In this document: positions 15,769 to 32,473 of the stretch, piece after piece | How positions within the stretch are numbered: the stretch's first letter is position 1 | Layout: each line of letters starts with the position of its first letter | From: Jatrophihabitans endophyticus | GTDB taxonomy: Bacteria; Actinomycetota; Actinomycetes; Mycobacteriales; Jatrophihabitantaceae | Assembly: GCF_900129455.1 (NCBI RefSeq) | Contig: NZ_FQVU01000003.1 | Span: 372,001-436,000, forward strand | Length of the DNA: 64,000 nt | Direction of reading: 5' to 3' | Translations under genes and position numbers: made by a program | The notes under the pieces: generated by a model | What the model was told of the DNA's origin: nothing | The model's input: only the letters and a program-made list of their open reading frames with translations | Database searches by the model: none

Positions 15769-18700
15769 GTGTCAGCCGGGTCCGGGTCCAACGACCAGTT
15801 CGTGCACCTGCACGTGCACACCGAGTACTCGATGCTCGACGGCGCCGCCCGGTTGACCGAACTGTTCGAGTCGGCCGCGCGGATGGGCATGCCGGCGCTG
15901 GCCATGACCGATCACGGCAACGTCTTCGGCGCGCAGGACTTCTACAGCAAGGCCACCGCGGCCGGGGTCAAGCCGATCATCGGCATGGAGGCCTACGTCA
16001 CCCCGAACACCCACCGCGGCGAGCGCACCCGGGTGCGCTGGGCCGAGGGGGGCGAGAACGACGTCTCCGGCGGTGGCGCGTTCACCCACATGACGCTGCT
16101 GGCCGAGAACACCGCCGGCATGCACAACCTGTTCCGGCTCTCCTCGCGCTCCTCGCTCGAGGGCTTCTTCTACAAGCCGCGCGCCGACCGCGAGCTGCTC
16201 GCCGAGTACGCCGACGGCCTGATCGCCACCACCGGCTGCCCCTCGGGGGAGATCCAGACCTGGCTGCGCATCGGCGACTACGAGAAGGCCCGCGCGAGCG
16301 CGGCCGAGTTCCGCGACATCTTCGGGCGCGACAACTACTACCTCGAGCTGATGGACCACGGGCTGGCCATCGAGACCCGCGTGCGCGACGACCTGCTGCG
16401 GCTGGCCAAGGACCTCCAGTTGCCGATGATCGCCACCAACGACCTGCACTACACGCACGCCGAGGACGCCGACACCCACGAGATCCTGCTGTGCGTGCAG
16501 TCGGGCAAGACCATGGCCGACCCGAACCGGTTCAAGTTCGACGCGCGCGACTTCTACCTCAAGAGCCCGGCCGAGATGCGCTCGCTGTGGGCCGACAAGT
16601 ACGACCTGCGCGAGGCGTGCGACAACACGCTGCTCATCGCCGAGCGCTGCGAGGTCAGCTTCACCGAGGGCAACGGCACCTACATGCCGAACTTCCCGGT
16701 GCCCGACGGCGAGACCGAGTCCTCGTGGTTCCGTACGGAGGTCGCCACCGGGATGCAGCGCCGCTTTCCCGACGGCATCCCCGCCGACGCGCAGCGGCAG
16801 GCCGACTACGAGGTCGGCGTCATCGAGCAGATGCGCTTCCCCGGCTACTTCCTCGTGGTCGCCGACTTCATCAACTGGGCCAAGGACAACGGCATCCGCG
16901 TGGGCCCGGGCCGTGGCTCGGGCGCGGGGTCGATGGTCGCCTACGCCATGCGCATCACCGACCTCAACCCGCTGCAGCACGGGCTCATCTTCGAGCGGTT
17001 CCTCAACCCCGACCGCGTGTCGATGCCCGACTTCGACGTGGACTTCGACGAGCGCCGGCGCGGCGAGGTCATCCGCTACGTCACCGAGAAGTACGGCAGC
17101 GACCGCGTCGCGCAGATCGTCACCTACGGCACGATCAAGGCCAAGCAGGCGGTGAAGGACGCCGGCCGCGTGCTCGGCTACCCGTTCGCCATGGGCGACC
17201 GCATCACCAAGGTCATGCCGCCGCCGGTGATGGGCAAGGACGTCCCGCTCGCCAAGATCTTCGATCGCGACCATGCCCGGTACAACGAGGGCGGCGAGTT
17301 CCGCGCGCTGTACGAGTCCGACCAGGAGGTCGCCAAGGTCGTCGACCAGGCCAAGGGCCTGGAGGGGTTGAAGCGGCAGTGGGGGGTGCACGCCGCCGGC
17401 GTCATCATGTCGAGCGACCCGCTGCTCGACCTGATCCCGATCATGAAGCGCGAGCAGGACGGCGCGATCATCACGCAGTTCGACTACCCGACCTGCGAGA
17501 AGCTCGGCCTGATCAAGATGGACTTCCTCGGGTTGCGCAACCTGACGATCCTCGACGACGCGCTCGAGAACATCAAGATCAACCGCGACGAGGACGTCGT
17601 GGTCGAGGAGCTCGACCTCACCGACCGAGTCACCTACGACCTGCTCGCCCGGGGCGAGACGCTCGGGGTGTTCCAGCTCGACGGCGGCCCCATGCGGGCG
17701 CTGCTGCGGTCGATGCGGCCGGACAACTTCGAGGACATCTCGGCCGTCGGCGCGCTCTACCGCCCCGGCCCGATGGGTGCCGACTCGCACAACAAGTACG
17801 CCAACCGCAAGAACGGCCGCGAGCCGGTGGTGCCGATCCACCCCGAGCTCGCCGAGCCGCTCGCGGAGATCCTGGGCGAGACCTTCGGGCTCATCGTGTA
17901 CCAGGAGCAGGTCATGGCCATCGCGCAGAAGGTCGCGGGCTTCTCGCTCGGTCAGGCCGACATCCTGCGCCGCGCCATGGGCAAGAAGAAGAAGGCCGAG
18001 CTGGACAAGCAGTTCGCCGGCTTCTCCGGCGGCATGAAGGACAACGGCTTCTCCGAGGCCGCGGTGAAGACGCTCTGGGACATCCTGCTCCCGTTCTCCG
18101 ACTACGCCTTCAACAAGGCGCACTCGGCCGCCTACGGGCTGGTGTCCTACTGGACGGCGTACCTCAAGGCCAACTACCCGGCCGAGTACATGGCGGCGCT
18201 GTTGACGTCGGTGAAGGACGACAAGGACAAGATGGCGATCTACCTCGCCGAGTGCCGCCGCATGGGCATCAAGGTGCTGCCGCCGTGCGTCAACGAGTCC
18301 GAGGCCAACTTCACCCCGACCGGCACCGACATCCGCTTCGGGCTCACCGCGATCCGCAACGTCGGGGCGAACGTCGTCGCCTCGATCGTCGCCACGCGCA
18401 AGCTCAAGGGCGCGTTCGCCGACGTCGGCGACTTCCTGAAGAAGGTCGACGCCGTGGTGTGCAACAAGCGCACCATCGAGGGGCTGATCAAGGGCGGCGC
18501 GTTCGACTCGCTCGGGCACATGCGCCGCGGCCTGATCAACGTCTACGAGGCCGCGGTCGACAGCGTGCTCGACAGCAAGCGGGCCGCCGAGCGCGGTCAG
18601 GACTCGCTGTGGGACAGCCTCGAGGTCACCGCCGACGACCCGAGCGAGGACGTCTTCGCCGTCCGCGTCCCCGAGGTCGAGTGGGACAAGAAGGTCCTGC

Positions 18701-19314
18701 TGCAGTTCGAGCGCGAGATGCTCGGCCTCTACGTCTCCGACCACCCGCTGTTCGGTCTCGAGCACGTCCTGGGCAACGCCGCCGACTGCTCGGTGGCCGC
18801 GGTGCAGGCCGAGGGGGCGGGTGAGGCGCAGACGTTGACGCTCGCGGGCATCCTCAGCTCGGTGAACCGGCGCGTCACCAAGGCGGGCGCACCCTGGGCC
18901 AACGCCGTGCTCGAGGACCTCGAGGGCTCCATCGAGGTCATGTTCTTCCCCGCCACCTACGCGCAGGTCGCGCTCAACGTCGCCGAGGACGCGGTGGTGG
19001 CGATCAAGGGACGCACCGACGCCCGCGACGACACGGTCAAGCTGATCGCCAGCGAGCTCAGCGTCCTCGACACCACGCAGACCGACGGCACCCGCGGCCC
19101 GGTGCGGCTGCGCCTCGAGGCGACCCGGTGCACGCCGCCGCTGGTGAGCCGGCTCAAGGACGTCCTGGTCACCCATGCCGGGCCCACCGAGGTGCATCTG
19201 GAGCTGCTCAGCCAGAACAGCCCGACGGTGGTGCTCGACACCCGGGTGACCCCGTCGGCCGCGCTCATGGGCGACCTCAAGGCGCTGCTCGGGCCGACGG
19301 CCATCTCGGCCTGA
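15769..19314 (+). CDS. dnaE: DNA polymerase III alpha subunit (DnaE1)
   Basis: A 1181-residue replicative polymerase. The N-terminal PHP domain begins HLHVHTEYSMLDG and has TDHGN; in actinobacterial DnaE1 this domain is an active proofreading exonuclease. The palm carries the catalytic PDFDVDFDERRR near residue 421. The finger and beta-binding regions follow, then a C-terminal OB-fold near residue 1023 (LAGILSSVNRRVTKAG). The GTG start has AAGGGGAG upstream. The gene stands alone, divergent from otsB (221-base gap) and convergent with the MFS exporter (18-base gap). Confidence 0.97.
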   Translation: MSAGSGSNDQFVHLHVHTEYSMLDGAARLTELFESAARMGMPALAMTDHGNVFGAQDFYSKATAAGVKPIIGMEAYVTPNTHRGERTRVRWAEGGENDVSGGGAFTHMTLLAENTAGMHNLFRLSSRSSLEGFFYKPRADRELLAEYADGLIATTGCPSGEIQTWLRIGDYEKARASAAEFRDIFGRDNYYLELMDHGLAIETRVRDDLLRLAKDLQLPMIATNDLHYTHAEDADTHEILLCVQSGKTMADPNRFKFDARDFYLKSPAEMRSLWADKYDLREACDNTLLIAERCEVSFTEGNGTYMPNFPVPDGETESSWFRTEVATGMQRRFPDGIPADAQRQADYEVGVIEQMRFPGYFLVVADFINWAKDNGIRVGPGRGSGAGSMVAYAMRITDLNPLQHGLIFERFLNPDRVSMPDFDVDFDERRRGEVIRYVTEKYGSDRVAQIVTYGTIKAKQAVKDAGRVLGYPFAMGDRITKVMPPPVMGKDVPLAKIFDRDHARYNEGGEFRALYESDQEVAKVVDQAKGLEGLKRQWGVHAAGVIMSSDPLLDLIPIMKREQDGAIITQFDYPTCEKLGLIKMDFLGLRNLTILDDALENIKINRDEDVVVEELDLTDRVTYDLLARGETLGVFQLDGGPMRALLRSMRPDNFEDISAVGALYRPGPMGADSHNKYANRKNGREPVVPIHPELAEPLAEILGETFGLIVYQEQVMAIAQKVAGFSLGQADILRRAMGKKKKAELDKQFAGFSGGMKDNGFSEAAVKTLWDILLPFSDYAFNKAHSAAYGLVSYWTAYLKANYPAEYMAALLTSVKDDKDKMAIYLAECRRMGIKVLPPCVNESEANFTPTGTDIRFGLTAIRNVGANVVASIVATRKLKGAFADVGDFLKKVDAVVCNKRTIEGLIKGGAFDSLGHMRRGLINVYEAAVDSVLDSKRAAERGQDSLWDSLEVTADDPSEDVFAVRVPEVEWDKKVLLQFEREMLGLYVSDHPLFGLEHVLGNAADCSVAAVQAEGAGEAQTLTLAGILSSVNRRVTKAGAPWANAVLEDLEGSIEVMFFPATYAQVALNVAEDAVVAIKGRTDARDDTVKLIASELSVLDTTQTDGTRGPVRLRLEATRCTPPLVSRLKDVLVTHAGPTEVHLELLSQNSPTVVLDTRVTPSAALMGDLKALLGPTAISA

Positions 19315-19332
19315 GCCCCGCGCTGCCGGCGG

Positions 19333-20862
19333 TCAGCGCCCGGCGCCCGGTGCGCCGTCCCGGTCGCCGCGGCGCAGGACGATGACCGCGCACGCCGCCA
19401 GCAGCAGCATCCCCGCGGCGGTGGCCAGCGCGACCTGCATGCCGTCGACGAAGGCGGCCTGCGCGCGGCCGGCGAGCGACGGGTCGATCGCCCGGGCGAC
19501 GGCGAGCGACTCGCGGGCGTGCTCGGCGACGCGGTGCGGCACCCCCGGCAGGGGCAGGTGACCGCGGTAGAGCGAGAGCAGGATGCTGCCGAGCACGGCG
19601 ATCCCCAGCGCACCGCCCAGCTCGCGCGCGACGTCGTTCATCGCCGAGCCGACGCCCTGCTTGTCCGCGGGCAGCGCGTCGGTCACCGCCGCGGTGGCCG
19701 GCGTCATGGCCAGCCCCATCCCGGCGCCGAGCGCGACGAGCCCGCCCAGCAGCAGCCAGTAGGGGCTCCGCTCGTCGAGGCGTGACAGCAGCCCGAGCGC
19801 GGCGGCGGCGAGGACGAGCCCGGCCGCGGACGCGTGGGCGGTGCCGAACCGGTCGGCGAGCCGCGGCGCGACGAGCCGTGCGCTCGGCATCATGCCGAGG
19901 GCCATCGGCACGAGGCTCGCCGCGGCGACGAGCGGCGAGTTGCCCAGCACCAGCTGCAGGTACTGCAGCACCAGGAAGACGAAGCCGAAGAAGGCGGCGA
20001 ACTGCAGCGTGAGCGACAGCACGCCCGCGCCGAACGCGGGGACGCCGAAGAGCCGGACGTCCAGCAGCGGGGTCGCGGTCCGCGTCTCCCACACCGCGAA
20101 CAGCGCGAGCAGCACCGCCCCCGCGGCCAGGCCGCCGAGGGTGCGTGCCGTCCACCACCCCGCGGTCGGGGCCTCGATGATCGAGTAGACCAGCGCGGCG
20201 AGACCGGCGGCGCTCACGAGCGCGCCGAGGACGTCCACGCGCGGCGCGTCCGGGTCGGCGGACTCCGGCACGACCCGCAGCGTCGCGACCAGCGCGATCG
20301 CGGCGAGCGCGACGTTGACGCCGAACACGCCGCGCCACGACCAGTGCTCGAGCACGAGCCCCGACGCGAGCAGGCCGACGACGGCCGAGGCGCCGGCGAC
20401 GCCGGCCCACGTGCCCACGGCCTTCGCGCGCTGGGCCGCCGGGAAAATGGTGGTGACCGTCGCCAGCGTCGCCGGCATGACGAGCGCGGCGCCGAGGCCG
20501 AGCACCGCGCGGAGCGCGATCAGGGCCGGGGCCGAGTCGACCGTCATCGCGACGGCCGAACCGGTGCCGAAGACGAGCAGCCCGGCGACGAGGACCCGTC
20601 GCCGCCCGGCCCGGTCGCCGATCGCCCCGCCGGCGAGCAACAGGGCGGCGAAGGTCAGGGCGTACGCGTCGACGATCCACGACAGCTGCGTCTGGCTCGC
20701 GCGGGTCTCGGCGGCGATCGAGGGCAGCGCCACGTTGAGCGACGCGGTGGCGGCCACGACGGTGGCCAGGGCCAGGCAGGTCGTGGCGAGGACGGCGCCG
20801 TGGCCGTGCCGGGGGGTGGGGGCTGCGACCCGCGGGTCGCGGGCTCCGGTGCCGGTCGTCAT
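19333..20862 (-). CDS. DHA2-family MFS drug exporter
   Basis: A 509-residue proton-driven exporter of the EmrB/QacA (14-segment) type. The loop 2-3 motif reads GGAIGDRAGRRRV, and TTCLALATVVAATASLNVALPSI is the first membrane segment. Motif C-like Gly/Pro-rich sequence (GLGAALVMPATLATV) marks an antiporter. AGGAG precedes the ATG. It is divergent from a TetR gene with only 64 bases between them, the usual arrangement for a repressor controlling an efflux pump. The substrate is unknown. The C-terminal ~20 residues are Arg/Asp-rich and cytoplasmic. Confidence 0.9.
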   Translation of the reverse strand: MTTGTGARDPRVAAPTPRHGHGAVLATTCLALATVVAATASLNVALPSIAAETRASQTQLSWIVDAYALTFAALLLAGGAIGDRAGRRRVLVAGLLVFGTGSAVAMTVDSAPALIALRAVLGLGAALVMPATLATVTTIFPAAQRAKAVGTWAGVAGASAVVGLLASGLVLEHWSWRGVFGVNVALAAIALVATLRVVPESADPDAPRVDVLGALVSAAGLAALVYSIIEAPTAGWWTARTLGGLAAGAVLLALFAVWETRTATPLLDVRLFGVPAFGAGVLSLTLQFAAFFGFVFLVLQYLQLVLGNSPLVAAASLVPMALGMMPSARLVAPRLADRFGTAHASAAGLVLAAAALGLLSRLDERSPYWLLLGGLVALGAGMGLAMTPATAAVTDALPADKQGVGSAMNDVARELGGALGIAVLGSILLSLYRGHLPLPGVPHRVAEHARESLAVARAIDPSLAGRAQAAFVDGMQVALATAAGMLLLAACAVIVLRRGDRDGAPGAGR

Positions 20863-20896
20863 CGGCGTGCTCCTGTCCGATCGGGTGGGACTCGAC

Positions 20897-20909
20897 GGTG
20901 ACGGTCACC
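20897..20909. promoter_or_regulatory. Candidate TetR operator in the divergent promoter
   Basis: GGTGAC and GTCACC form perfect 6-base arms around one base, in the 64-base gap between the MFS and TetR starts. Position and symmetry fit binding by the adjacent TetR protein; this is by motif only. Confidence 0.45.
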
Positions 20910-20926
20910 CGCCCTAGATTTCAACC

Positions 20927-21553
20927 GTGATGAATAAACCGCGGGGACGAGGCCGGCCGGCGCACCCCACCGGGGCGCGCGACGCGATCCTGGCGGTGGC
21001 GCAGCGTCGCTTCGTCCGCGAGGGGTACGAGGCCGTCACGTTGCGCTCGGTCGCCGCCGAGGCCGGGGTCGACGTCGCGGCGGTGAGCTACCACTTCGGA
21101 TCGAAGAAGGGGCTGTTCGGGGCCGCGCTCGCGCTGTCGACCAACCCGGCCGACGTCATCGCCGAGGTCTTCGCCGGCCCGGCCGCCACGGCACCGCAGC
21201 GACTGGTGCGCCGCGTGCTGCAGGCCTGGGACGACGAGGAGGACGGCGCCAAGCTGCGCCGGCTCGGGCAGCGCGCGGTGGGCGACCCCGACGTCGCGCG
21301 GCTCGTCCGCGAGATGTTCGAGCGCGAGATGACGCCCGTCATCGTCGGGCACATCGGCGGGGCGGACGCGCAGCTGCGCGCCGCCACGGTCATCAGCGTG
21401 ATCGGCGGGCTCATCATCGGCCGCTACCTGGTGGGCATCGAACCGCTCGCCTCGCTGCCGGCCGATGAATTGGTGGCCCGGCTCGCACCCCTCGTCCGCG
21501 TCGCGCTGGCCGGGGCCCGGGCCGCCGAGACACCGCGACGGCGCCCCGGGTAG
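20927..21553 (+). CDS. TetR/AcrR family repressor
   Basis: A 208-residue TetR regulator. The helix-turn-helix covers about residues 17-62, with AILAVAQRRFVREGYEAVTLRSVAAEAGV and VSYHFGSKKGLF. The ligand domain follows and resembles the C-terminal domain of PsrA/RutR-like members. A TAGATT -10 ends six bases before the GTG, so the mRNA may be leaderless; an ATG one codon further in is also possible. It probably represses the divergent DHA2 exporter in response to an exported compound. Confidence 0.88.
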   Translation: MMNKPRGRGRPAHPTGARDAILAVAQRRFVREGYEAVTLRSVAAEAGVDVAAVSYHFGSKKGLFGAALALSTNPADVIAEVFAGPAATAPQRLVRRVLQAWDDEEDGAKLRRLGQRAVGDPDVARLVREMFEREMTPVIVGHIGGADAQLRAATVISVIGGLIIGRYLVGIEPLASLPADELVARLAPLVRVALAGARAAETPRRRPG

Positions 21554-21567
21554 GGCCGGCGGGCGGT

Positions 21568-21622
21568 GTCACCCGGGCGTCACCTGCGCGTCGCCCCGCC
21601 GTCGCCGGGACGTGGCCCCCCG
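21568..21622 (+). promoter_or_regulatory. Array of five 11-nt direct repeats (PHO-box-like)
   Basis: Five consecutive 11-base units read GTCACCCGGGC, GTCACCTGCGC, GTCGCCCCGCC, GTCGCCGGGAC and GTGGCCCCCCG. They end 15 bases before a TAGCGT -10 (21638-21643), so they cover the -35 region of the methyltransferase promoter. Spacing and core match the direct-repeat units bound by actinobacterial PhoP regulators. The matching arrays at 23771, 23858 and 27220 support a shared regulator. Confidence 0.6.
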
Positions 21623-21637
21623 GGCGGTCGACCTTCC

Positions 21638-21643
21638 TAGCGT
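21638..21643 (+). promoter_or_regulatory. -10 of the surface-polymer methyltransferase
   Basis: TAGCGT in CTTCCTAGCGTCG. The same CTTCCTAGC string is at the -10 of the minus-strand glycosyltransferase at 22387, which suggests the two promoters are related. Confidence 0.5.
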
Positions 21644-21699
21644 CGGGGCCGCGACCGTCCGCCGTCCGGCGGTGACGGCCCACCACCGTCGGGAGAGCG

Positions 21700-22374
21700 A
21701 TGCACACGTCGGCCATGAACCACATGCGGCTCTCCGTGGAGCAATACCTGAAGCGCGACCGTCACTACGACGTCCTCGACTTCGGGTCCCAGGCCGCCGG
21801 CAACGGCCGGACGCACCGCGAGGTGCTCGTCGACCACGACGTCACCTACACCGGTGTCGACGTGGTGGCGGGGGAGAACGTCGACATCGTGATGGCCAAG
21901 CCGTACCGCATCCCCGCGCGGGCGAGGTCCTTCGACGTCGTCATCACCGGATCGGCCTTCGAGCACATCCCGTTCATGTGGGCGTCGTTCCTGGAGATCG
22001 CGCGGGTGCTGCGGCCCGGCGGCCTGGTGTTCCTGACCGCGCCGTCGCGCGGCCACATCCACTTCGACATGGACTGCTGGCGCTTCTACCCCGACTCGAT
22101 GCGGGCCCTCGCCGCGTTCGCGCGCATGCAGCTGCTCGAGGCCCACACCGACATGCCGCCGAAGCACCCCCGCGGTGGGGTCGACTACGCGCGCGTGGAC
22201 TACGAGCGCAACTACTGGGGCGACACCGTCGGCGTGTTCCGCAAGCCGCAGGAGTACTCGATGCTCGTGGCCCCCGTGCGCGAGGTGATCGTGTGGTGGG
22301 CGAACCGGGTCAACGGCATCGAGCACGTGCCGCGCAAGTACGGCACGAAGAAGCGGTTCCGCGTCGCCCTCTGA
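21700..22374 (+). CDS. Class I SAM-dependent methyltransferase (Methyltransf_11 type)
   Basis: A 224-residue methyltransferase. The SAM-binding region begins YDVLDFGSQAAGNGRTH, and the acidic loop is TYTGVDVVAG. FDVVITGSAFEHIPFMW and VLRPGGLVFLTAPS are the following strand motifs. The first glycine-rich loop is atypical (DFGSQAAGN for DxGxGxG). It opens the surface-polymer cluster and probably methylates a sugar hydroxyl, a common decoration of such polymers; the acceptor is unknown. GGGAG lies close to the ATG at 21700, so the in-frame ATG at 21715 is an alternative. A direct-repeat array and a -10 lie upstream. Confidence 0.82.
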   Translation: MHTSAMNHMRLSVEQYLKRDRHYDVLDFGSQAAGNGRTHREVLVDHDVTYTGVDVVAGENVDIVMAKPYRIPARARSFDVVITGSAFEHIPFMWASFLEIARVLRPGGLVFLTAPSRGHIHFDMDCWRFYPDSMRALAAFARMQLLEAHTDMPPKHPRGGVDYARVDYERNYWGDTVGVFRKPQEYSMLVAPVREVIVWWANRVNGIEHVPRKYGTKKRFRVAL

Positions 22375-22386
22375 CGAGCCGGTGCG

Positions 22387-23727
22387 TCAGAGCTGCGCGA
22401 TGCGCTTGACGCGGGGCTCGACGACGCGGACGCCGTACCGGTAGGCGCGGCGCGCGGCCACGCGCGCGGCGCGACGCGCGAACGACGGGCGCGTCCCGAT
22501 CGCGTCGGACGGCGCCAGCACGGCGCCGGTGCGGTCGATGCCGTACCTCGCGAGCAGGCCGGGCAGGTAGGCGCCGGCCCGCTCCTCGTCGAGCCATGGG
22601 CGCAGCGGCGGCAGCTCCGCGCGCTTCGCGACAAGCTCGCCGAGCCGGTCGGCGGCGGCGGTGTAGGAGTCCGGGCCCACGACCACGCCGTGCGCGGCGG
22701 CCCACTCCGGGCGGGTGACGGGCAGCTCGCCGCGCAGCAGCGACGGCCAGGACGTCATCGCCCCGGACCCGACGAACAGCTGGTTGCCGAGCGACTCGCG
22801 GATGCCGTAGTCGGTGAGCAGTGCCGTCGGGATGCCGCGGTGCATGGCCTCGATCGCCGCCGTCGAGCTGACGGTGACGCACAGGTCGGTGCGATCGAGC
22901 ACCGCGTCCATCGCGCCGTAGGCGAAGGTCAGGTTGGGCGGCAGCTCCTCCGGTGGGAGCAGGGCCTCGAAGTGGAAGGGCTCGACGTGCGTCGTCCGGT
23001 CGCCGACCCGGGCACGCAGCTTGACCACCACCGCGTGATCGGGGTGCCGACGGCCGTAGGCGGCCGCCTGCTCCAGGACGTGCCGGCGCTCCGCCTCCTG
23101 CTGCGGGACGCCGGGCTGGGTCACGAAGGTGAGCGTGAAGGGATGCCGCTGCCGCGCCTGCGCCGCGTCGTAGGGCGCCCCGCCGAGGAACGGCAGCGCC
23201 GTCGCGACGACCGACTTCGGGTCGGCGCCGAGATCGGCGAAGACGTCGGCGAAGCGGGCGGCGTCGGCGTCGCAGTTGGCGAGCACGAGATCGGCGCCGG
23301 CGCGGTTCACGAGCCCGTCGATGATCTTCTCGTACACGAGCCCGACGTAACCGGTGACGACGACCGGCCGGGTCGGCCGGTCCCGCCACGCCCGCCCCAG
23401 GGCGTGCAGCAGCGACTGGACGCAGCCGCCGATGCACGCGAGCACGACCACCTCGGCGTCGCTGTCGGCCAGCCGGGCGACGGTCTCGGCGATGCTCGCC
23501 CGCCGCAGCGAGGCGGGGGTGATGCCGATGTCGGCCAGCTGCTGGTCGTTGGGGACCGAGCGGCCGAGCAGCAACGTCGCGTGCAGCTGCGCGGGGCGGT
23601 CGGCGACGAGGCGGGCCGCCACGGTGGCCCCCCACTTCCATCGGCTGTCCGAGTCCGCCACGACCTCGACGCGCCAGGGTGGCGTCTCGGTGCCGTCGTC
23701 CGTCGTCGTCGGGGGGCTCGCCGTCAT
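22387..23727 (-). CDS. GT-B-type glycosyltransferase-like protein of the polysialic-type cluster (DUF6716-like)
   Basis: A 446-residue protein that resembles putative glycosyltransferases (DUF6716 type) seen beside neuA/neuB in actinobacteria. Visible features are an N-terminal Rossmann-like half with VVVVTGYVGLVYEKIIDGL and LVLANCDADAARFADVF, and a C-terminal half with TVSSTAAIEAMHRGIPTALLTDYG, the Ser-Ser-Thr plus Gly-x-Pro pattern of capsule glycosyltransferases. There is no signal peptide; the C-terminus is strongly basic. A TAGCTT -10 lies seven bases before the ATG, so the mRNA should be leaderless. The gene is divergent from the GT2 enzyme, and the shared promoter region carries two direct-repeat arrays. 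The sugar it transfers is unknown. Confidence 0.65.
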   Translation of the reverse strand: MTASPPTTTDDGTETPPWRVEVVADSDSRWKWGATVAARLVADRPAQLHATLLLGRSVPNDQQLADIGITPASLRRASIAETVARLADSDAEVVVLACIGGCVQSLLHALGRAWRDRPTRPVVVTGYVGLVYEKIIDGLVNRAGADLVLANCDADAARFADVFADLGADPKSVVATALPFLGGAPYDAAQARQRHPFTLTFVTQPGVPQQEAERRHVLEQAAAYGRRHPDHAVVVKLRARVGDRTTHVEPFHFEALLPPEELPPNLTFAYGAMDAVLDRTDLCVTVSSTAAIEAMHRGIPTALLTDYGIRESLGNQLFVGSGAMTSWPSLLRGELPVTRPEWAAAHGVVVGPDSYTAAADRLGELVAKRAELPPLRPWLDEERAGAYLPGLLARYGIDRTGAVLAPSDAIGTRPSFARRAARVAARRAYRYGVRVVEPRVKRIAQL

Positions 23728-23734
23728 GGCCGCG

Positions 23735-23740
23735 AAGCTA
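23735..23740 (-). promoter_or_regulatory. -10 of the minus-strand glycosyltransferase gene
   Basis: TAGCTT on the minus strand, seven bases before the ATG at 23727. It implies transcription starting at the start codon. Confidence 0.55.
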
Positions 23741-23770
23741 GGAAGCGCGCCTTGCCGCGAGGGAGCATGC

Positions 23771-23814
23771 AGGTGGCGGTCGGGGAGCGGTCAGGTAAAT
23801 GCGAGGTTCCGCGG
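23771..23814 (-). promoter_or_regulatory. Array of four 11-nt direct repeats (PHO-box-like)
   Basis: On the plus strand the units are AGGTGGCGGTC, GGGGAGCGGTC, AGGTAAATGCG and AGGTTCCGCGG. Read on the minus strand they give the [TC]ACCT or [TC]CCCC cores seen in the other arrays of this cluster. The array lies 31-74 bases upstream of the -10 of the glycosyltransferase at 22387. Confidence 0.5.
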
Positions 23815-23857
23815 GTGGCTGCCGCGGCGCCCGGGCCCCCGGCGCACCCGCCCGCCC

Positions 23858-23901
23858 GTCACCTGCTGCTCACCCGCGCGCGTCGAGACGGCCACCTGGG
23901 C
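23858..23901 (+). promoter_or_regulatory. Array of 11-nt direct repeats (PHO-box-like)
   Basis: Units GTCACCTGCTG (23858), CTCACCCGCGC (23869), a degenerate unit at 23880, and a CCACCTG unit at 23891 keep strict 11-base phase. They lie upstream of the GT2 start at 23940 and face the array at 23771, so the divergent region carries one array for each gene. Confidence 0.5.
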
Positions 23902-23939
23902 CTCATCGTGTCGTCGCCGCGCGCCGCGACCATCTCCGG

Positions 23940-24911
23940 GTGCCGACCGACCCGACACTGACCGTCGTACTTCCCGTCCGCAACGTCGCGGCGTACCTGC
24001 CCGACATGCTCACCTCCCTGGGGCTCAATACCGACGTCGACCTGCAGCTCGTCGTCGTCGACGACGGCTCCGACGACGGGACCGCGCAGGTGATCGAGGA
24101 GTTCGCGGACCGGTTGCCGCAGCTGCAGGCGATCCGGCACGACACCGCGGTCGGGCTGGCCGACGCCCGCAACGCCGGGCTGGACCGTGCCGTCGGGCGC
24201 CACGTCTGCTTCCTCGACGGCGACGACTGGCTCGCGCCGGGGTACCTCGGCCGGCTCGTCCACGCGATCGACGGGCTCGGCTGCGACTTCGTGCGCGTGG
24301 ACCACGTGCAGGTGCGCGACCGCGACCGCGTCGTGCACCTCGCGCCCGAGGCCCGTCGCGACGTCGTGCTCGACCCGCGCTCGGGCATCCTGCCGGCCAG
24401 CCGACGCACGATGATCGACTACCCGTACGCCTGGGCGGGCATCTTCCGGCGCGAGCTCGGCGAGCTGCTGCGCTTCCCGGCCGGGCTGCACACCGCCGAG
24501 GACCGGCCGTGGATCTGGCGCCTGCACCGCGAGGCCCGCAGCTACGCCGTGACGTCCCTGGCCGGCGTGTTCTACCGGCGCGACGTCGCGAACTCCCTGA
24601 CGCAGATCGGCGACCACCGGCAACTGCAGTTCGTCGACGCCTACGCGATGGTGCTCGCGCAGGTGAGCGGCGACGCGGCGCTGCTGGGCAAGGCGATGCG
24701 CCAGTTCCTCGGCATCGTCGCGCACCAGGTGGAACAGGGCGAGGAGCGCTTCACCGCCCCGCTGCGCCGGCAGCTGGCCGAGCGTGTCACCGAGCTGCTC
24801 GCCGGGGTGGACCCCGACGTCGTCGGGCGGGCACTGCCCGGTGACGACCGCATCCAGGTGCTCGCCCCGCTGCTGCCCGCGGCCGTCCTCGGCCGGCGGT
24901 GGGCGTCGTGA
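23940..24911 (+). CDS. Family 2 glycosyltransferase
   Basis: A 323-residue GT-A inverting glycosyltransferase. It begins TLTVVLPVRNVAAYLPDML. The nucleotide-binding VVVDDGSDDGTAQVI and the metal-binding FLDGDDWLAPGYL are classical, and TAEDRPWIWRL carries the likely catalytic Glu-Asp. The C-terminal ~100 residues are helical and resemble those of capsule and teichoic-acid polymerases. I chose GTG 23940; a GTG or ATG further upstream would add unrelated Pro/Arg-rich sequence. The stop overlaps the start of the next gene as GTGA, which makes the two co-transcribed. It probably adds a neutral sugar to the surface polymer. Confidence 0.88.
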   Translation: MPTDPTLTVVLPVRNVAAYLPDMLTSLGLNTDVDLQLVVVDDGSDDGTAQVIEEFADRLPQLQAIRHDTAVGLADARNAGLDRAVGRHVCFLDGDDWLAPGYLGRLVHAIDGLGCDFVRVDHVQVRDRDRVVHLAPEARRDVVLDPRSGILPASRRTMIDYPYAWAGIFRRELGELLRFPAGLHTAEDRPWIWRLHREARSYAVTSLAGVFYRRDVANSLTQIGDHRQLQFVDAYAMVLAQVSGDAALLGKAMRQFLGIVAHQVEQGEERFTAPLRRQLAERVTELLAGVDPDVVGRALPGDDRIQVLAPLLPAAVLGRRWAS

Positions 24912-26287
24912 CCAGCGTCTTCTACGCCTCGACCCTGTTCGGGGCCATGACCCTGGCCACCGCGCTGGACGCGGGAGCGTTCGGCGACCACGACGAGCGG
25001 CGCGTGCTGATCGTCTCGAACACCGTGCCGATCCCCGAGATCACGCCCTCGTTCGACCGGTTGCCCGCGGCGGCGGGGCTGCGCGAGCGCTTTGACGACG
25101 TCGTCGACTGGAACGCGCTGGTCGCGCCGCTGCACCCGTCGCGGTGGCGACCGCGCGCGGCGGAGGCGCCCATGCTGGCACGGCTGTTCGCGCAGCGGCT
25201 CGGGCTGGCGGGCGGGGTGCGCGAGCTCGTGCTGGAATCGGTGGCCGTCGCTCCCGCGCGCACCATCGGCTCGCTGCTGCAGGGCTGCCCGATCACGGTG
25301 TACTCCGACGGGCTGATGAGCTACGGGCCCACGCGCGACAACCTGCCGGCCGGCATCGGCCGGCGTACCAGCCGGCTGCTGTACCTCGACCTCGTCCCGA
25401 CGATCGCGCCGCTGCTGCTACGCGAGTACGACGTCGCCACGGTCGCGCTGCCCGACACCGGTTTCCGGCGCGTCGTCGCCTCGCTGCCCGCGGCCGACGC
25501 CGCCGGCGCGCGCGGCGCACCCGTCGTCCTCGGCCAGTACCTCTCGCAGCTCGGCATCCTCGAGCCGCGCGAGGAGCTCGAGCTGCACGAGCGCATGCTC
25601 GACGCCCTCGCCGCGCGCGGGGCGGACCGGGTCGTGTTCCGGCCCCACCCGGCGGCGCGGCGGGTGCACGTGCTGCCGCTGCAACGCCACGCGCAGCGGC
25701 GGGGGGTCGAGCTCGTCGTCCCGGACGACGGCCTGCCGGCCGAGTCCTGGTTCGCGGCCGCCGGCCCGTCGCTGGTGGTGTCGTGCTTCAGCACCGCGCT
25801 GTTCACCGCGAGCCGGTTCTACGGCTGCGAGGTCGCGACGATGGGCACCGACACCGTCCTCGAGCGGGTCGCCCCGTTCGAGAACAGCAACCGCATCCCC
25901 GTGACGCTGGCGGACGCGCTGCTGCCCCGCCTGGACGCGGACGGCGGGACCACGAGACCCGACGTGCCGGACGTGACCGAGCTCGTGCGCGCCGTCGGCT
26001 ACTGCATGCAGGCCGACCGGCTCGCCGATCTGCGCGACGCCGCCGCCGCCTACCTCGGCCGGCACGGGCGCGAGCGCTACTTCAAGCGCAAGCGGCTCGA
26101 GGCGGTCGGGCTGCTGGCACCGCCGCCGGCCGCGCCGGCACCGACTGCGCCGCCGGTCGGCAAGGGGCTGCTGGCGCGGGCCGGTGGCCGACGCCCGGGC
26201 GGCCGCGCGGCGGCCGGCCGGGCAGGCGGGCCCGGTGACCGGCCGGTGACCCGCGAGGACGGACGACCGAACAGGAGACGGACGTGA
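24908..26287 (+). CDS. Polysialyltransferase-like glycosyltransferase
   Basis: A 459-residue protein resembling the alpha-2,8-polysialyltransferase family. Motifs seen are VYSDGLMSYGP (the Asp-Gly motif), VVFRPHPA (the His-Pro motif that contacts the CMP phosphate) and VVSCFSTALF (the Ser/Thr pair). These three motifs in this order are the signature of bacterial sialyl- and polysialyltransferases. It would extend the polymer with CMP-nonulosonate. No membrane segment is visible. The last ~50 residues are Pro/Ala- then Arg/Gly-rich and disordered. The start (GTG 24908) overlaps the GT2 stop, and the stop overlaps the next start. A GTG at 24899 is an alternative start. Confidence 0.72.
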   Translation: MTSVFYASTLFGAMTLATALDAGAFGDHDERRVLIVSNTVPIPEITPSFDRLPAAAGLRERFDDVVDWNALVAPLHPSRWRPRAAEAPMLARLFAQRLGLAGGVRELVLESVAVAPARTIGSLLQGCPITVYSDGLMSYGPTRDNLPAGIGRRTSRLLYLDLVPTIAPLLLREYDVATVALPDTGFRRVVASLPAADAAGARGAPVVLGQYLSQLGILEPREELELHERMLDALAARGADRVVFRPHPAARRVHVLPLQRHAQRRGVELVVPDDGLPAESWFAAAGPSLVVSCFSTALFTASRFYGCEVATMGTDTVLERVAPFENSNRIPVTLADALLPRLDADGGTTRPDVPDVTELVRAVGYCMQADRLADLRDAAAAYLGRHGRERYFKRKRLEAVGLLAPPPAAPAPTAPPVGKGLLARAGGRRPGGRAAAGRAGGPGDRPVTREDGRPNRRRT

Positions 26288-27216
26288 CCATGGGATCCCT
26301 TCGCAGCTCGCCCTTGGTGCGGGTACCGCGGCGCACGTTGACCGAGCTCGTCGACCGGCGGGTCGCCGCGGCGATGAAGCGCCACGAGATCGCCCGGGAC
26401 GAGACCGCCGAGCTGCGCCGCGAGGTGCAGCAGCTGCGCGAGCGCACCCGCACCTTCGAGCTGCTCCTCGACGGCGCCGGGCGGGGTACGGCGCGGATGC
26501 CGTCGCCGGCCAACCTGGCGGGGTTGCAGCGCGAGATCACCGGCCTGTGCGGCGACCCCGAGGCCGCCGAGCGCAACGTGCACGGCGCGTTCCGCCTGCT
26601 CGTCGCCCTCGAGTCGCTCGGGGTGGGGCGCATCGCCGGGGGCACGATGAACATCTGCGGCAAGCTCGCCACCGTCCCGCTGCTCGCCAGGACCGACGGC
26701 GCGGAGCTCGAGATGCTCGAGATCGGGACGCTGTACGGCCTGTTCGCGGCCGCGCTGCTGCGGATGACCGAGCGCACCGGGGCCACGCCGTCGCTGACGA
26801 TCGTCGACCCGCTGGTGGGCATGCAGCTGCAGAACCAGGCCGCGATCCCCGCCGACGCGTCCGGCACGCCGGTCGCCGCGGCGGCGGTGCGGACGAACCT
26901 CGCGCTGGCCGGGGCCGCGGGTGGCGCGGCCCGGATCGTCGTCGGCCTCTCCGGCGACGCCGACGTCCGGGCCACGGTCGGCGACCGCCGTTACGGCGTC
27001 GTGGTGGTCGACGGCGACCACGGCTACGAAGGCGTGGCCGAGGACCTGCGCTGGGTCGAGCAGATCGTCGCGCCCGGCGGCATCGTCGTGCTCGACGACT
27101 ACGGCGACGGCAAGTGGCCCGGCGTGCAGCGCGCGCTGCAGGACCACCTCGCCGGCGACTCGCGGCTGACGCTGCTGGGCCGGGTGGCGACGTCGGGTTA
27201 CCTGCGGGCGGCCTGA
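26284..27216 (+). CDS. Class I SAM methyltransferase (Methyltransf_24 type) with N-terminal coiled coil
   Basis: A 310-residue protein. Residues about 20-65 form a charged coiled coil (RRVAAAMKRHEIARDETAE, then REVQQLRERT). The methyltransferase domain has LEMLEIGTLYGLFAAALL for SAM, IVDPLVGM, and VVVVDGDHGYEGVAEDL plus GGIVVLDDYGDGKWPG. The DGDH and DDY pairs are typical of Methyltransf_24 enzymes that act on sugars in surface glycans. The GTG start overlaps the preceding stop as GTGA; an ATG two codons in is the alternative. It is the last gene of the 23940 operon. Confidence 0.85.
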   Translation: MTMGSLRSSPLVRVPRRTLTELVDRRVAAAMKRHEIARDETAELRREVQQLRERTRTFELLLDGAGRGTARMPSPANLAGLQREITGLCGDPEAAERNVHGAFRLLVALESLGVGRIAGGTMNICGKLATVPLLARTDGAELEMLEIGTLYGLFAAALLRMTERTGATPSLTIVDPLVGMQLQNQAAIPADASGTPVAAAAVRTNLALAGAAGGAARIVVGLSGDADVRATVGDRRYGVVVVDGDHGYEGVAEDLRWVEQIVAPGGIVVLDDYGDGKWPGVQRALQDHLAGDSRLTLLGRVATSGYLRAA

Positions 27217-27219
27217 CGC

Positions 27220-27241
27220 GTTCACCCGGACGTCAACCGGC
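27220..27241 (+). promoter_or_regulatory. Pair of 11-nt direct repeats upstream of neuA (PHO-box-like)
   Basis: GTTCACCCGGA and CGTCAACCGGC are adjacent 11-base units sharing a TCA(C/A)C core. They begin three bases after the stop of the methyltransferase at 26284 and lie 50 bases upstream of the neuA -10. Of the four arrays in the cluster this one is nearest to the published GTTCACC core of PHO boxes. Confidence 0.55.
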
Positions 27242-27290
27242 TGCCCTGCGACGTCCACTTCGCGAACGACTCCCGGTCCACCTGCGCTCA

Positions 27291-27296
27291 TAACTT
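27291..27296 (+). promoter_or_regulatory. -10 of the neuA-neuB transcript
   Basis: TAACTT lies seven bases before the ATG of neuA with no ribosome site, so the transcript probably begins at the start codon. Confidence 0.6.
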
Positions 27297-27303
27297 CAGC
27301 GAC

Positions 27304-28479
27304 ATGAGGACGCGCGTGGTGGCGGTGATCCCCGCCCGGGGCGGGTCGAAGGGCGTCCCCGGCAAGAACGTCACCGAGGTCGGCGGCCGGCCGCTGGTCG
27401 CCCGCGCGGTCGCCGCCGCCCGGGCGGCCGGGCACGTCGACCGCGTGCTCGTCTCCACCGACGACCCGTTGATCGCGAGCGCCGCCCGCGACGCCGGGGC
27501 CGAGATCGTCGACCGCCCCGTCGCCCTGGCCGACGACACCGCGACCTCGGAGTCCGCGTTGCGGCACGCGCTCGACACCGCCGCCCCCGAGGCCGAGGTC
27601 GTGCTGCTCGTGCAGTGCACGTCGCCGTTCCTCTCCGCCGACGACGTCGACGGCGTCGCCGCGGCGGTGCTCGGCGGTGCCGACAGCGCCTTCACCGCCG
27701 CGGTGTCGCACGGCTTCCTGTGGCGGCCCGACGGCACCGGCGTGAACCACGACCCGGCGACGCGGCCGCGTCGTCAGGACCGGCCGGTCGAGCTGCTCGA
27801 GACCGGCGCCGCGTACGCCATGCGGGTCGACGGCTTCCGTCGTACCGGGCACCGCTTCTTCGGTCGCGTCGTGCCCGTCGCCGTCGACCCGGCCCGCACC
27901 CTGGAGATCGACGAGCCGGCCGACCTCGACCGGGCCCGGCTGCTGGCGCCGCTGGTCGACCACGCCACGAGCATCGGGCTCGCGGACGTCGACGCGCTGG
28001 TGCTCGACTTCGACGGCACGCTGACCGACGACCGCGTCGTCGTCGACCAGGACGGCCGTGAGTCGGTCACCGTGCATCGCGGCGACGGGCTCGGCATCGC
28101 CGCGCTGCGCCGCGCCGGGTTGGCCGTCGTCATCCTGTCGACCGAGCAGAACCCGGTCGTCAGCGCGCGGGCGCGCAAATTGAACATCCCTGCGCTGCAG
28201 GGGATCGAGGCGAAGGGTGTCGCCCTCGCGCAATGGTGCGCGGATCACGGCCACGACCTCGCTCGCACGGCCTACGTGGGCAACGACGTCAACGACCTGC
28301 CGTGTTTCGACATCGTCGGCTGGCCCATCGCGGTCGCCGACGCCCATCACTCGGTGCGTGCACGAGCGCGCATCGTCACTGCCGCCGCCGGCGGCCACGG
28401 CGCGATCCGCGAGGTTGCGTCGCGACTGCTAGGGAAGGAGATCCGAGATGGATCTGACTCGCTTGCGCTACATCGGTGA
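27304..28479 (+). CDS. neuA: Bifunctional CMP-nonulosonate cytidylyltransferase / HAD phosphatase (NeuA-HAD)
   Basis: A 391-residue fusion. Residues 1-225 are a NeuA-type cytidylyltransferase with IPARGGSKGVPGKNV, VSTDDPLIA, LLVQCTSPF and a final LEIDEPADLDRA; it activates a nonulosonic acid with CTP. Residues about 230-385 are a KdsC-like HAD phosphatase with all motifs: LDFDGTLTDD, LSTEQNPVV, the Lys in IEAKGV, and YVGNDVNDLPCF. The same domain order exists in vertebrate CMAS. A phosphatase here suits removal of the 9-phosphate from Kdn-9-P or Neu5Ac-9-P before activation. The 3' end overlaps neuB by 32 bases, so the two are coupled. A -10 seven bases before the ATG suggests a leaderless mRNA. 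Confidence 0.88.
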   Translation: MRTRVVAVIPARGGSKGVPGKNVTEVGGRPLVARAVAAARAAGHVDRVLVSTDDPLIASAARDAGAEIVDRPVALADDTATSESALRHALDTAAPEAEVVLLVQCTSPFLSADDVDGVAAAVLGGADSAFTAAVSHGFLWRPDGTGVNHDPATRPRRQDRPVELLETGAAYAMRVDGFRRTGHRFFGRVVPVAVDPARTLEIDEPADLDRARLLAPLVDHATSIGLADVDALVLDFDGTLTDDRVVVDQDGRESVTVHRGDGLGIAALRRAGLAVVILSTEQNPVVSARARKLNIPALQGIEAKGVALAQWCADHGHDLARTAYVGNDVNDLPCFDIVGWPIAVADAHHSVRARARIVTAAAGGHGAIREVASRLLGKEIRDGSDSLALHR

Positions 28480-29377
28480 CCGACCGGTCGGCCCCGACCA
28501 CCCCGTCTACGTCACCGCCGAGATCGGCATCAACCACAACGGTGACCTCGGCGACGCGCTCGCCATGATCGACGTCGCGGTCGCGGCGGGCTGCGACGCC
28601 GTCAAGTTCCAGAAGCGCACCCCCGAGATCTGCGTGCCGGCCGACCAGCAGCAGGTCGAGCGGGACACGCCCTGGGGCCGGATGACCTACCTCGCCTACC
28701 GGCACCGCGTCGAGTTCGGCCAGGACGAGTACGAGGCCATCGACCGCTACTGCCGGCAGCGGGGCATCGCGTGGTTCGCCTCGCCGTGGGACGTGCCGAG
28801 CGTGGACTTCCTCGAGCTGATGGACCCGCCCGCGCACAAGATCGCGTCGGCGTCGCTGACCGACGACGAGCTGCTTGCCCGGGTGCGCGAGACCGGCCGC
28901 ACCGTGATCCTGTCCACGGGCATGTCGACGCCCGACGAGATCCGCCACGCCATCGACGTGCTCGGCCGGGAGCGGCTCGTCCTCTGCCACACGACGAGCT
29001 CCTACCCGGCGCCGCCGGAGGAGCTCAACCTGCGCATGCTGCACACGCTGATGCACAACTACCCCGACGTGCCCATCGGCTACAGCGGGCACGAGATCGG
29101 TCTGCAGACCACGGTGGCGGCGGTGGCGCTCGGCGCGACCTTCGTCGAGCGGCACATCACCCTCGACCGCGCCAACTGGGGCTCCGACCAGGCCGCGTCG
29201 GTCGAGCCCTCGGGGCTGCAGCGTCTCGTGCGTGACATCCGCGTCGTGGAGAGCGCATTGGGCGACGGCGTCAAGCGCGTCTACGACAGCGAGCTGCCGG
29301 TGCGGGCGAAGCTGCGCCGGACGGTCGACACCGCGTCGGTGGACACCACACCGGGCGACACCGTCGCCGCGCGGTGA
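28448..29377 (+). CDS. neuB: N-acylneuraminate / Kdn synthase (NeuB family), lacking the SAF domain
   Basis: A 309-residue NeuB-family TIM barrel that condenses phosphoenolpyruvate with a hexose or its 6-phosphate to give a nonulosonic acid. Motifs seen are VTAEIGINHNGDLGDA, AVKFQKRTPE, FASPWDV, ILSTGMST, CHTTSSYPAP and GYSGHEIG. Usual NeuB proteins have about 340-350 residues with a C-terminal antifreeze-like (SAF) domain; this one ends soon after the ELPVRAKLRR that normally leads into it, so the domain is missing. AAGGAG seven bases before the ATG lies inside neuA. No neuC-type epimerase is nearby, which favours Kdn made from mannose-6-phosphate over N-acetylneuraminate. Confidence 0.9.
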   Translation: MDLTRLRYIGDRPVGPDHPVYVTAEIGINHNGDLGDALAMIDVAVAAGCDAVKFQKRTPEICVPADQQQVERDTPWGRMTYLAYRHRVEFGQDEYEAIDRYCRQRGIAWFASPWDVPSVDFLELMDPPAHKIASASLTDDELLARVRETGRTVILSTGMSTPDEIRHAIDVLGRERLVLCHTTSSYPAPPEELNLRMLHTLMHNYPDVPIGYSGHEIGLQTTVAAVALGATFVERHITLDRANWGSDQAASVEPSGLQRLVRDIRVVESALGDGVKRVYDSELPVRAKLRRTVDTASVDTTPGDTVAAR

Positions 29378-29378
29378 C

Positions 29379-30413
29379 ATGACCGCCCTGCGGACCCTCG
29401 CGCTGGTGGAGAGCGCGACACAGCTGCTCAACGTCGTCGAGTGGGCGCACGCGACGGGGGAGACCGCGGATCTGCGGATCGCGGTGCTCTGCCCGAAGGA
29501 CTCGCCCACCCGTGGGCAGCTGCGCGAGGTCGGCGCGCTCGCCGCCGGCAGCGGCCTGAACGTCGACCTGGTCGACATCCGGGCGCTGGGCTCCGGCGGT
29601 CTGCTCGGCGGCGTGCGCCTCACCCGGTCGCTGTCGGCCGCGCACCGCGTCGTCCTCGGCGACCCGTTCTCCGGGCTCATCCAGACGCTGCTGCCCTTCG
29701 TGCGGGCCGAGCACGTCGTCGTGGTCGACGACGGGACGGCGACGTGGGAGTTCGCGGCGTGCGTGGACAGCGGCGCGCCGCTGGTCAGGTGGCGGCTGGA
29801 GGCCCGGGGGGCGACGCCCCGGGCGGCGCGCGCCACCCGGCTGCTCTCGCCCGGCGCGCACCGGACGCTCACCGTGTTCAGCTGCCTCACCGGGGCGACG
29901 CCGGTGGGTGCGGCAGGCATCGTGAACCGGTACGGGTGGACGCGCTCGCAGGGCGTCCCGCAGGTGCGCGCGGACGAGATCGACGTCGTCGGCGCCTCGC
30001 TGGTGGAGACGGGGGTCGTCGACCGGGCCGCGTACCTGGCCGCCCTCGCCCGGCTGGCCGCCCGAGCCACCGGGGTGCGCTATCTGGCGCACCGGCGCGA
30101 GTCGGAGAACCGGCTGGCCGAGATCGCCGCGCTGCCGAACGTCCGGGTGCAGCGCGGCCGGCTGCCGGTCGAGCTCACGCTGCGACAGGGTCCGGTCGCC
30201 GCGCACGTCATCACCTTCCCCTCGACGGCGGCGCACACGCTTCCGGTGGTGCTCGGTGACCTGTCCGACGATGCGACGCGGCCCGCCGTGCGGGTCGAGG
30301 TGCGCCGGGTCGAGGACGCCTGGTTCACGCCGTCGACCGGCAGCCACGCCCGCGACTTCGTGACGCGGATCGGCACCGACGCCCCCGCCCGGCCGGTGCT
30401 CGAACCGGCGTGA
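29379..30413 (+). CDS. Second sialyl/polysialyltransferase-like protein
   Basis: A 344-residue protein with the sialyltransferase-type motif order: VVVVDDGTATWEF (Asp-Asp-Gly), YLAHRRESENRLAEI (in place of the His-Pro motif) and VITFPSTAAHTLP (Ser-Thr). Similarity is loose, so the exact family is uncertain. Placed directly behind neuB with one base between stop and start, it is most likely a transferase that uses the CMP-sugar made by NeuA. It may act as initiator while the protein at 24908 elongates, or the reverse. The N-terminus (TLALVESATQLLNVVEWAH) is typical of this type and there is no membrane segment. Confidence 0.6.
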   Translation: MTALRTLALVESATQLLNVVEWAHATGETADLRIAVLCPKDSPTRGQLREVGALAAGSGLNVDLVDIRALGSGGLLGGVRLTRSLSAAHRVVLGDPFSGLIQTLLPFVRAEHVVVVDDGTATWEFAACVDSGAPLVRWRLEARGATPRAARATRLLSPGAHRTLTVFSCLTGATPVGAAGIVNRYGWTRSQGVPQVRADEIDVVGASLVETGVVDRAAYLAALARLAARATGVRYLAHRRESENRLAEIAALPNVRVQRGRLPVELTLRQGPVAAHVITFPSTAAHTLPVVLGDLSDDATRPAVRVEVRRVEDAWFTPSTGSHARDFVTRIGTDAPARPVLEPA

Positions 30414-30451
30414 AGAGCGGTCGACCGGCGGGGGCGCCCGGCCGCGCTGGG

Positions 30452-30457
30452 TAATCT
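30452..30457 (+). promoter_or_regulatory. -10 of the membrane protein gene at 30465
   Basis: TAATCT lies seven bases before the ATG. No ribosome site is present, so a leaderless mRNA is likely. Confidence 0.5.
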
Positions 30458-30464
30458 CGCAGGT

Positions 30465-32419: not shown

Positions 32420-32473
32420 GCCTCACACGCTAGTGCGCGGCGGCCACCCACCGCGTCCGTAGACTCAGCGGAC

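Follow-up and report, generated by a model that had tools for sequence, protein, structure and literature searches.

Putative PHO boxes at the promoters of a nonulosonate wall-polymer gene cluster in Jatrophihabitans endophyticus

The stretch of DNA analysed here (the window; 64,000 nucleotides of Jatrophihabitans endophyticus, contig NZ_FQVU01000003.1, positions 372,001 to 436,000) carries a gene cluster apparently devoted to a nonulosonate wall polymer. Four arrays of 11-nt direct repeats lie in front of a methyltransferase gene (MT), the divergent DUF6716 and GT2 glycosyltransferase genes, and neuA. The best explanation, to which we assign a probability of roughly 85%, is that these arrays are PHO boxes of the SenX3-RegX3 system, through which the transcription units of the cluster would be switched on at low phosphate. 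The arrays had first been noticed, and likened to PHO boxes, in a reading of the sequence alone; all four were located at the coordinates it had given. The PHO-box identity is borne out, in that an 11-nt motif derived from pstS and phoU regions recurs in the cluster, its phase to the -10 box equals that of pstS, and the same arrangement is found class-wide. The motif, its phase, its conservation and the presence of RegX3 are features of the DNA itself. RegX3 operators are very probably present, as predicted from these features, at neuA, GT2 and DUF6716, and a PHO-type promoter is likely at MT.

Motif, periodicity and placement of the arrays

The motif was learned by unsupervised expectation-maximisation from 150 random seeds, the training set being the regions upstream of pstS (30) and phoU (31) in this genome and its relatives, of which the 59 non-own regions were used. 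The best eight of the 150 seeds agree on one 11-nt tandem unit, nnCGTTCAC(C/T)(C)n. The pair score falls below 4 bits in 5 of the 59 training regions, and the pstS of J. endophyticus, left out of training, scores 22.0 bits. In the window the pair scores are 12.6 bits at GT2, 12.4 at neuA, 2.0 at MT and 0.7 at DUF6716, where the best single unit has 8.7 bits; in background DNA (759,202 positions, 380 kb on both strands) there are 23 pairs of at least 12 bits and 114 of at least 8 bits. A GTTCACC-like core, as in the pstS promoters of the lineage, is found at neuA and GT2 and in one unit at DUF6716, not at MT. The third unit of the GT2 array fails to match, and downstream of the neuA pair further in-phase units, weaker ones, reach to the -10 box. 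The sequence-only reading had ascribed a (G)TCACC core to every array; at DUF6716 this does not hold, the units having only ACC or CCC (GGAACC, TTTACC, CTCCCC, GCCACC), but the 11-nt register is strict there.

Periodicity was assessed by a consensus-free test, the self-similarity of five 11-nt units with the best register within a few bases, at 777,894 positions in 780 kb of the same genome. The value of the MT array is attained by 6.7e-5 of these positions and that of the DUF6716 array by 9.6e-5; GT2 (1.1e-3) and neuA (3.8e-3) are unremarkable. The self-similarity of the MT array is 7.42 at period 11 and does not exceed 4.99 when the period is set to 7-10 or 12-15. The 11-nt direct repeat units of the actinobacterial PHO box are therefore seen in the periodicity of MT and DUF6716. 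By motif alone the GT2 and neuA arrays are convincing; by self-similarity the other two stand out. Pair scoring was rejected as a sole criterion, since it would have discarded MT and DUF6716.

The placement of the repeats follows one rule, which the sequence-only reading had not noticed: the distance from the conserved A of the first repeat unit to the T of the -10 box equals 11k+1. In pstS promoters of the family it is 45 nt, to a TA(G/A/C)CGT box, in all 13 tabulated (out of 16; L094 and L103, with 24.8 and 26.5 bits, and L096, nearly identical to L095, are excluded), one of which additionally carries an off-phase TAACGT within its repeats. In the window the distance is exactly 67 nt at neuA, DUF6716 and MT, and it is 67 nt again at the neuA and DUF6716 promoters of Jatrophihabitans sp. 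RYN_133. In five DUF6716-neuA operons from other families it is 45 or 56 nt (L040, L042, L046, L047 and L052); these were chosen out of seven for their strong pair, which L053 and L054 lack. Thus the distance is 1 modulo 11 in 23/23 tabulated promoters (13 pstS, five from the window and RYN_133, five other-family DUF6716-neuA). When the -10 box is held constant and all 11 phases are compared, the in-phase score ranks first in 12/12 promoters tested, GT2 included. Among 124 TAnC(G/T)T sites in the 780 kb of own genome, one attains the neuA score, and this is pstS itself. A fixed placement like that of pstS is therefore found at neuA, DUF6716 and MT, and at GT2 only via a weak TCGTGT chosen by position, so that the phase rule supports all four arrays save for the -10 box of GT2. 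The 7-nt gap between -10 box and ATG at neuA and DUF6716 is consistent with leaderless transcripts.

The proposal also survives a comparison with random hits, which the sequence-only reading had named as its possible undoing. Motif/-10 combinations of at least 8 bits in the 780 kb are spread evenly over the phases: 3/31 lie at phase 1, of which one is pstS and another (L149), preceding an ABC-transporter ATP-binding gene as judged by eye, is taken as chance. In the window two of the six combinations lie at phase 1, exactly neuA and DUF6716. A blind scan of the whole 4.48-Mb genome for GTTCACC pairs returned 39, while the reversed pattern gave 7. The four arrays are not among these 39 places, of which the sole one in the window (L022, about 26234, minus strand) lies inside the POLYST gene, and the scan by itself was discarded as a detector of the cluster. 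Among the 30 loci returned for these matches, a TANNNT box at 15-85 nt occurs in two, both in phase at 45 nt, and these belong to pstS and to a phosphate transporter gene of the PHO4 (PitH) family.

Occurrence in RYN_133 and elsewhere in the class

The nearest named relative of the cluster is that of RYN_133 (L031), with a NeuA 78% and a DUF6716 protein about 65% identical. In a search of the own genome and 60 relatives (61 in all), full-length DUF6716 matches were confined to these two, and the third match obtained is both short and weak. Both the array and its distance are retained in RYN_133 at the neuA and the DUF6716 promoter.

Of 394 genomes in the class, 76 (own included) have a NeuA of this type (E <= 1e-60), and the related proteins in other genomes match the window protein, a fusion of NeuA with a HAD domain, across almost its full length. 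Upstream DNA was sampled from 54 of the other 75 genomes, 21 being omitted owing to partial matches or a contig end. When a TANNNT box was sought at 15-85 nt from the best pair, a candidate was obtained at 37/54 operons and 36/37 were in phase, compared with 33/321 in shuffles; with a single-unit rule these figures become 49/54 and 46/49, compared with 46/517. By family, the single-unit rule places in phase 16/17 loci in f31, 18/19 in f33, 5/5 each in f51 and f41, 1/1 each in f56 and f59, and 0/1 in f57. Two details qualify these counts. First, L261 was scored off phase where a tie was assigned to an upstream TAGGAT, and its TAGCGT is in phase by the pair rule; second, the pair rule gave no -10 box for the five f41 loci, a better pair upstream having been chosen, and by the single-unit rule they are in phase at 23 nt.

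The arrangement of the window recurs most closely in f33, the genomes of which are probably Streptomyces. GT2 is divergent to DUF6716 in 18/19 f33 loci. On the strand opposite DUF6716, a candidate -10 box is present in 18 loci, in phase in 15 and one base off, at 46 nt, in three. The phase on both strands indicates PHO boxes at each of the two divergent promoters, which is also the situation in the window. The five f41 loci likewise have DUF6716 and neuA in divergent orientation, and there no -10 box was detected on the DUF6716 side. Deviations from the rule by a single base (46 or 35 nt) are seen in L248, L252 and L257, opposite DUF6716, and in L226; three of these four are GT2-side. Where DUF6716 occurs with no NeuA gene in the fetched DNA, a pair of at least 12 bits is present at 3/16 loci.

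The start codons are also placed in a regular manner. The gap between -10 box and start is 6 or 7 nt in 24/26 in-phase loci of f33, f51, f56 and f59 (L227, L229, L230, L232, L236, L238, L239 and most f33 loci included), the remaining two having no in-frame start that could be found, which suggests leaderless mRNAs for the operon heads of these families. In ten f31 loci the gap is 18-75 nt.

Regulator, mechanism and competing explanations

A regulator for such boxes is encoded in the genome. On another contig than the window, phoU is adjoined by a histidine kinase gene and by a response regulator gene whose product matches M. tuberculosis RegX3 at 1e-107, and RegX3 is the predicted and likely phosphate regulator acting on the arrays. 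The PhoR-PhoP pair of Streptomyces is of the same SenX3-RegX3 type. The sequence-only reading had named the regulator at 40916, along with PhoP, as one to be assayed for binding. The product of that gene (40832-41635, plus strand), of OmpR type, is closest to M. tuberculosis PhoP (5e-80) and less so to RegX3 (5e-50), so that it was ruled out as first choice, and RegX3 beside phoU is the more likely candidate. This calls for caution in naming, as the relative of the mycobacterial 'PhoP' encoded in the window probably does not act as phosphate regulator in this organism.

The mechanism we envisage is as follows. When phosphate is low, RegX3 in its phosphorylated form would occupy the 11-nt repeats as a head-to-tail row of subunits. 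The repeats are separated from the -10 box by an integral number of 11-bp steps, so that these subunits would face RNA polymerase on one and the same side of the helix and take the place of a -35 element. The MT, DUF6716, GT2-POLYST-MT24 (MT24 being the second methyltransferase) and neuA-neuB units would be turned on together, and under phosphate shortage a phosphate-free nonulosonate wall polymer would be made. It is binding and induction, the identity of the polymer and its exchange for teichoic acid that we infer. As these gene groups are preceded by the kind of DNA switch that the bacterium also has at phosphate-uptake genes, a phosphate-free coat is probably made on phosphate depletion, much as in Streptomyces. 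Four matches to PF04464, the teichoic-type polymerase family, lie elsewhere in the genome, on contig C2, and may leave room for a teichoic-to-nonulosonate exchange. A PHO-like pair (L011 1501-1518; C2 684009-684026) is situated amid PF04464 genes (C2 673-690 kb); no -10 box was found 15-85 nt from it, and it could be a repression site or chance.

Several observations weigh against reading the arrays as PHO boxes of the RegX3 system. The phoU region of this genome scores only 8.9 bits and has no -10 box by the rule. Six pairs of at least 12 bits occur in the window, that is, at GT2, at neuA and at 12963 (+), 26233 (-), 43594 (-) and 47813 (-), the last four having no in-phase -10 box. At GT2 neither a TAnCnT nor a TANNNT box was found, and the DUF6716 score is attained by 3/124 background -10 sites. 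Across the class, 5/54 loci, all of f51, have no candidate -10 box and three are off phase by the single-unit rule, and the PHO box is absent from 2/8 DUF6716 loci with NeuA (L053 and L054). The MT array is the weakest member, with its low motif score, a phase score attained by 6/124 background sites, and no counterpart in the RYN_133 cluster, where neither of the methyltransferases of the window was matched; the case for MT therefore rests on periodicity and phase. The pair at 26233, GTCACC-type with 13.3 bits, lies within POLYST coding sequence and is probably a chance occurrence.

The shortcomings of MT give rise to the alternative that survives best, namely that PHO promoters are present only at GT2, neuA and DUF6716, and that the MT array arose as a fortuitous succession of GTC/GCC words in G+C-rich DNA. 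Its motif score and the missing RYN_133 counterpart speak for this, and its level of periodicity is attained by 46/208,282 windows called non-coding, which amounts to a few percent per intergenic region of about 140 bases. Set against this are the distance of exactly 67 nt to TAGCGT, shared with neuA and DUF6716, and an in-phase score that is the top of 11; we consider the alternative possible and somewhat doubtful.

It is improbable that the arrays serve a different OmpR-type regulator of 11-nt period, either the M. tuberculosis-PhoP type of the window or MtrA, responding to envelope, acid, development or nitrogen cues. The spacing as such would allow it, as M. tuberculosis PhoP, the closest match of the window regulator, is described as binding 7-bp direct repeats with a 4-bp spacer (PMC4832192), and S. 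coelicolor MtrA as binding two 6-nt repeats 5 nt apart, with several regulators sharing PhoP sites (PMC6988585); in addition, the GTCACC of the MT array fits the GTTCACC motif poorly. In Microlunatus a DNase footprint reported for a different regulator, PolR, spans GTTCACnnnnnGTTCaC (PMC6754071), so that the motif by itself cannot name the regulator. On the other hand, the motif came from pstS and phoU regions, and the pstS and PHO4-family transporter genes of this genome share both motif and phase. The motif of mycobacterial PhoP reads TCACAGC. Such units are not found here; those of neuA, GT2 and MT run on as TCACC (TCACCCG, TCACCTG and TCACCCG).

That all four arrays came about by chance in a genome of 73% G+C, in which GTCACC-like words are indeed frequent (the 114 background pairs of at least 8 bits), is extremely unlikely in view of the phase lock to the -10 box, the conservation in RYN_133 and the class, the shuffles and the even phases in background DNA.

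Gene content and comparison with known systems

The features of the cluster are collected in the table below. The genes neuA, neuB, DUF6716, GT2 and POLYST occur together in the window (G+C 73%), and the identical set is found in the f33 loci. The HAD domain of the NeuA fusion is KdsC/Kdn-phosphatase-like and forms one protein with the cytidylyltransferase. The Kdn-9-phosphate phosphatase model NF058599 reaches 76.5 bits on the window, under its cut-off of 180, and the NeuB and pseudaminate synthase models likewise score under their cut-offs on the window proteins. The cluster is flanked by a dnaE-like gene and histidine genes both in the window (15769-33772) and in RYN_133 (L141).

Table. Arrays, -10 boxes and genes of the cluster (positions in the window)
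Feature	Coordinates	Strand	Description	Basis
MT-promoter array, PHO-like	21564..21622	+	five units, GTCACCCGGGC GTCACCTGCGC GTCGCCCCGCC GTCGCCGGGAC GTGGCCCCCCG from 21568	weak by motif, in phase with -10
MT promoter -10 box	21638..21643	+	TAGCGT	phase
MT	21700..22374	+	methyltransferase, Methyltransf_11	domain match
DUF6716	22387..23727	-	putative glycosyltransferase	domain match, 6.7e-95
DUF6716 promoter -10 box	23735..23740	-	TAGCTT, end 7 nt ahead of ATG	phase
DUF6716-promoter PHO array	23771..23814	-	four units, one good (CGCATTTACCT)	motif, periodicity, phase
GT2-promoter PHO array	23854..23901	+	GTCACCTGCTG CTCACCCGCGC GCGTCGAGACG GCCACCTGGGC from 23858; scored pair GCCCGTCACCT GCTGCTCACCC	motif
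GT2 promoter, possible -10	23906..23911	+	TCGTGT at 45 nt, without the A of TANNNT	position-chosen
GT2	23940..24911	+	glycosyltransferase, GTG start picked by eye	domain match
POLYST	24899..26287	+	transferase of the alpha-2,8-polysialyltransferase family type	domain match, 6.6e-25
MT24	26284..27216	+	second methyltransferase, Methyltransf_24	domain match
neuA-promoter PHO pair	27217..27238	+	GTTCACCCGGA CGTCAACCGGC from 27220; motif-frame pair CGCGTTCACCC GGACGTCAACC	motif
neuA promoter -10 box	27291..27296	+	TAACTT, end 7 nt ahead of ATG	phase
neuA	27304..28479	+	NeuA-type cytidylyltransferase fused to HAD phosphatase domain	domain matches
neuB	28448..29377	+	NeuB-type nonulosonate synthase	domain match

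The sequence-only reading knew of no description of such control for a nonulosonate polymer. This has to be corrected, as the teichulosonic (Kdn) acid locus of S. coelicolor and S. lividans is presented in published work as PhoP-controlled and phosphate-free (PMC2267785, PMC3282765, PMC8003754, PMC13011467). In S. coelicolor, SCO4873-81 with neuAB is reported to track the genes of phosphate starvation and is described as dependent on PhoP and free of phosphorus (PMC2267785, PMC3282765), and SCO4873-4882 are listed as major PhoP targets (PMC13011467). In S. lividans (SLI_5146-5156), a phosphate-free teichulosonic acid is described as replacing teichoic acid under phosphate limitation (PMC8003754), the teichulosonic polymer being composed of galactose and Kdn (PMC7831098). 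Outside Streptomyces, literature searches touching the topic found, among the papers listed, no description of Pho-controlled nonulosonate polymers, which is a weak negative. Judging from gene content and the gene order of the f33 loci, and not from a direct comparison with the S. coelicolor sequence, the window cluster would be the counterpart of SCO4873-4882.

The known Streptomyces response, a phosphate-free Kdn polymer under PhoP, is in this way extended to another family and, at the level of sequence, to several more. The present analysis adds a new host family, PHO promoters that stand separately inside the cluster, including one of neuA-neuB's own, and the class-wide 11k+1 rule; as regards the rule, a narrow look at the literature is insufficient to call it new. 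We think it somewhat more likely than not that the control of nonulosonate wall polymers by low phosphate is ancient and widespread among actinobacteria, not a speciality of Streptomyces, and that the PHO array stands 2, 3, 4, 5 or 6 units from the -10 box (23, 34, 45, 56 or 67 nt) and almost never between these steps. If true, such a stepwise design would allow Pho control to be tested from sequence alone, and perhaps promoters to be tuned by the number of intervening units. In genomes of very high G+C content, the rule also allows a likely PHO promoter to be told from a GTTCACC word that arose by chance.

Compared with known systems, the window resembles most closely the teichulosonic locus of S. 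coelicolor and S. lividans, where neuA/neuB-type genes likewise stand with glycosyltransferase genes under PHO control and the polymer is phosphate-free. It differs in its host family, in its extra methyltransferase genes and in the PHO promoter of neuA itself, a feature shared with RYN_133. The f33 loci are alike in that DUF6716-neuA and GT2/POLYST diverge from each other and PHO promoters occur on either strand. With the actinobacterial PHO box of PhoP/RegX3, for which a GTTCACC core in 11-nt units is given in S. coelicolor (PMC4415409), the arrays have in common the 11-nt units, the GTTCACC core and the same phase to the -10 box as the family pstS; by contrast, the arrays of neuA, DUF6716 and MT lie two units farther from the -10 box than that of pstS (67 versus 45 nt), and the units of MT and DUF6716 are degenerate. 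Another parallel is the PhoP-governed teichoic-to-teichuronic exchange of Bacillus subtilis, in which a phosphate-free polymer is also described as being under Pho control (PMC4415409); polymer and genes differ, those of the window being apparently for a nonulosonate and not a uronate.

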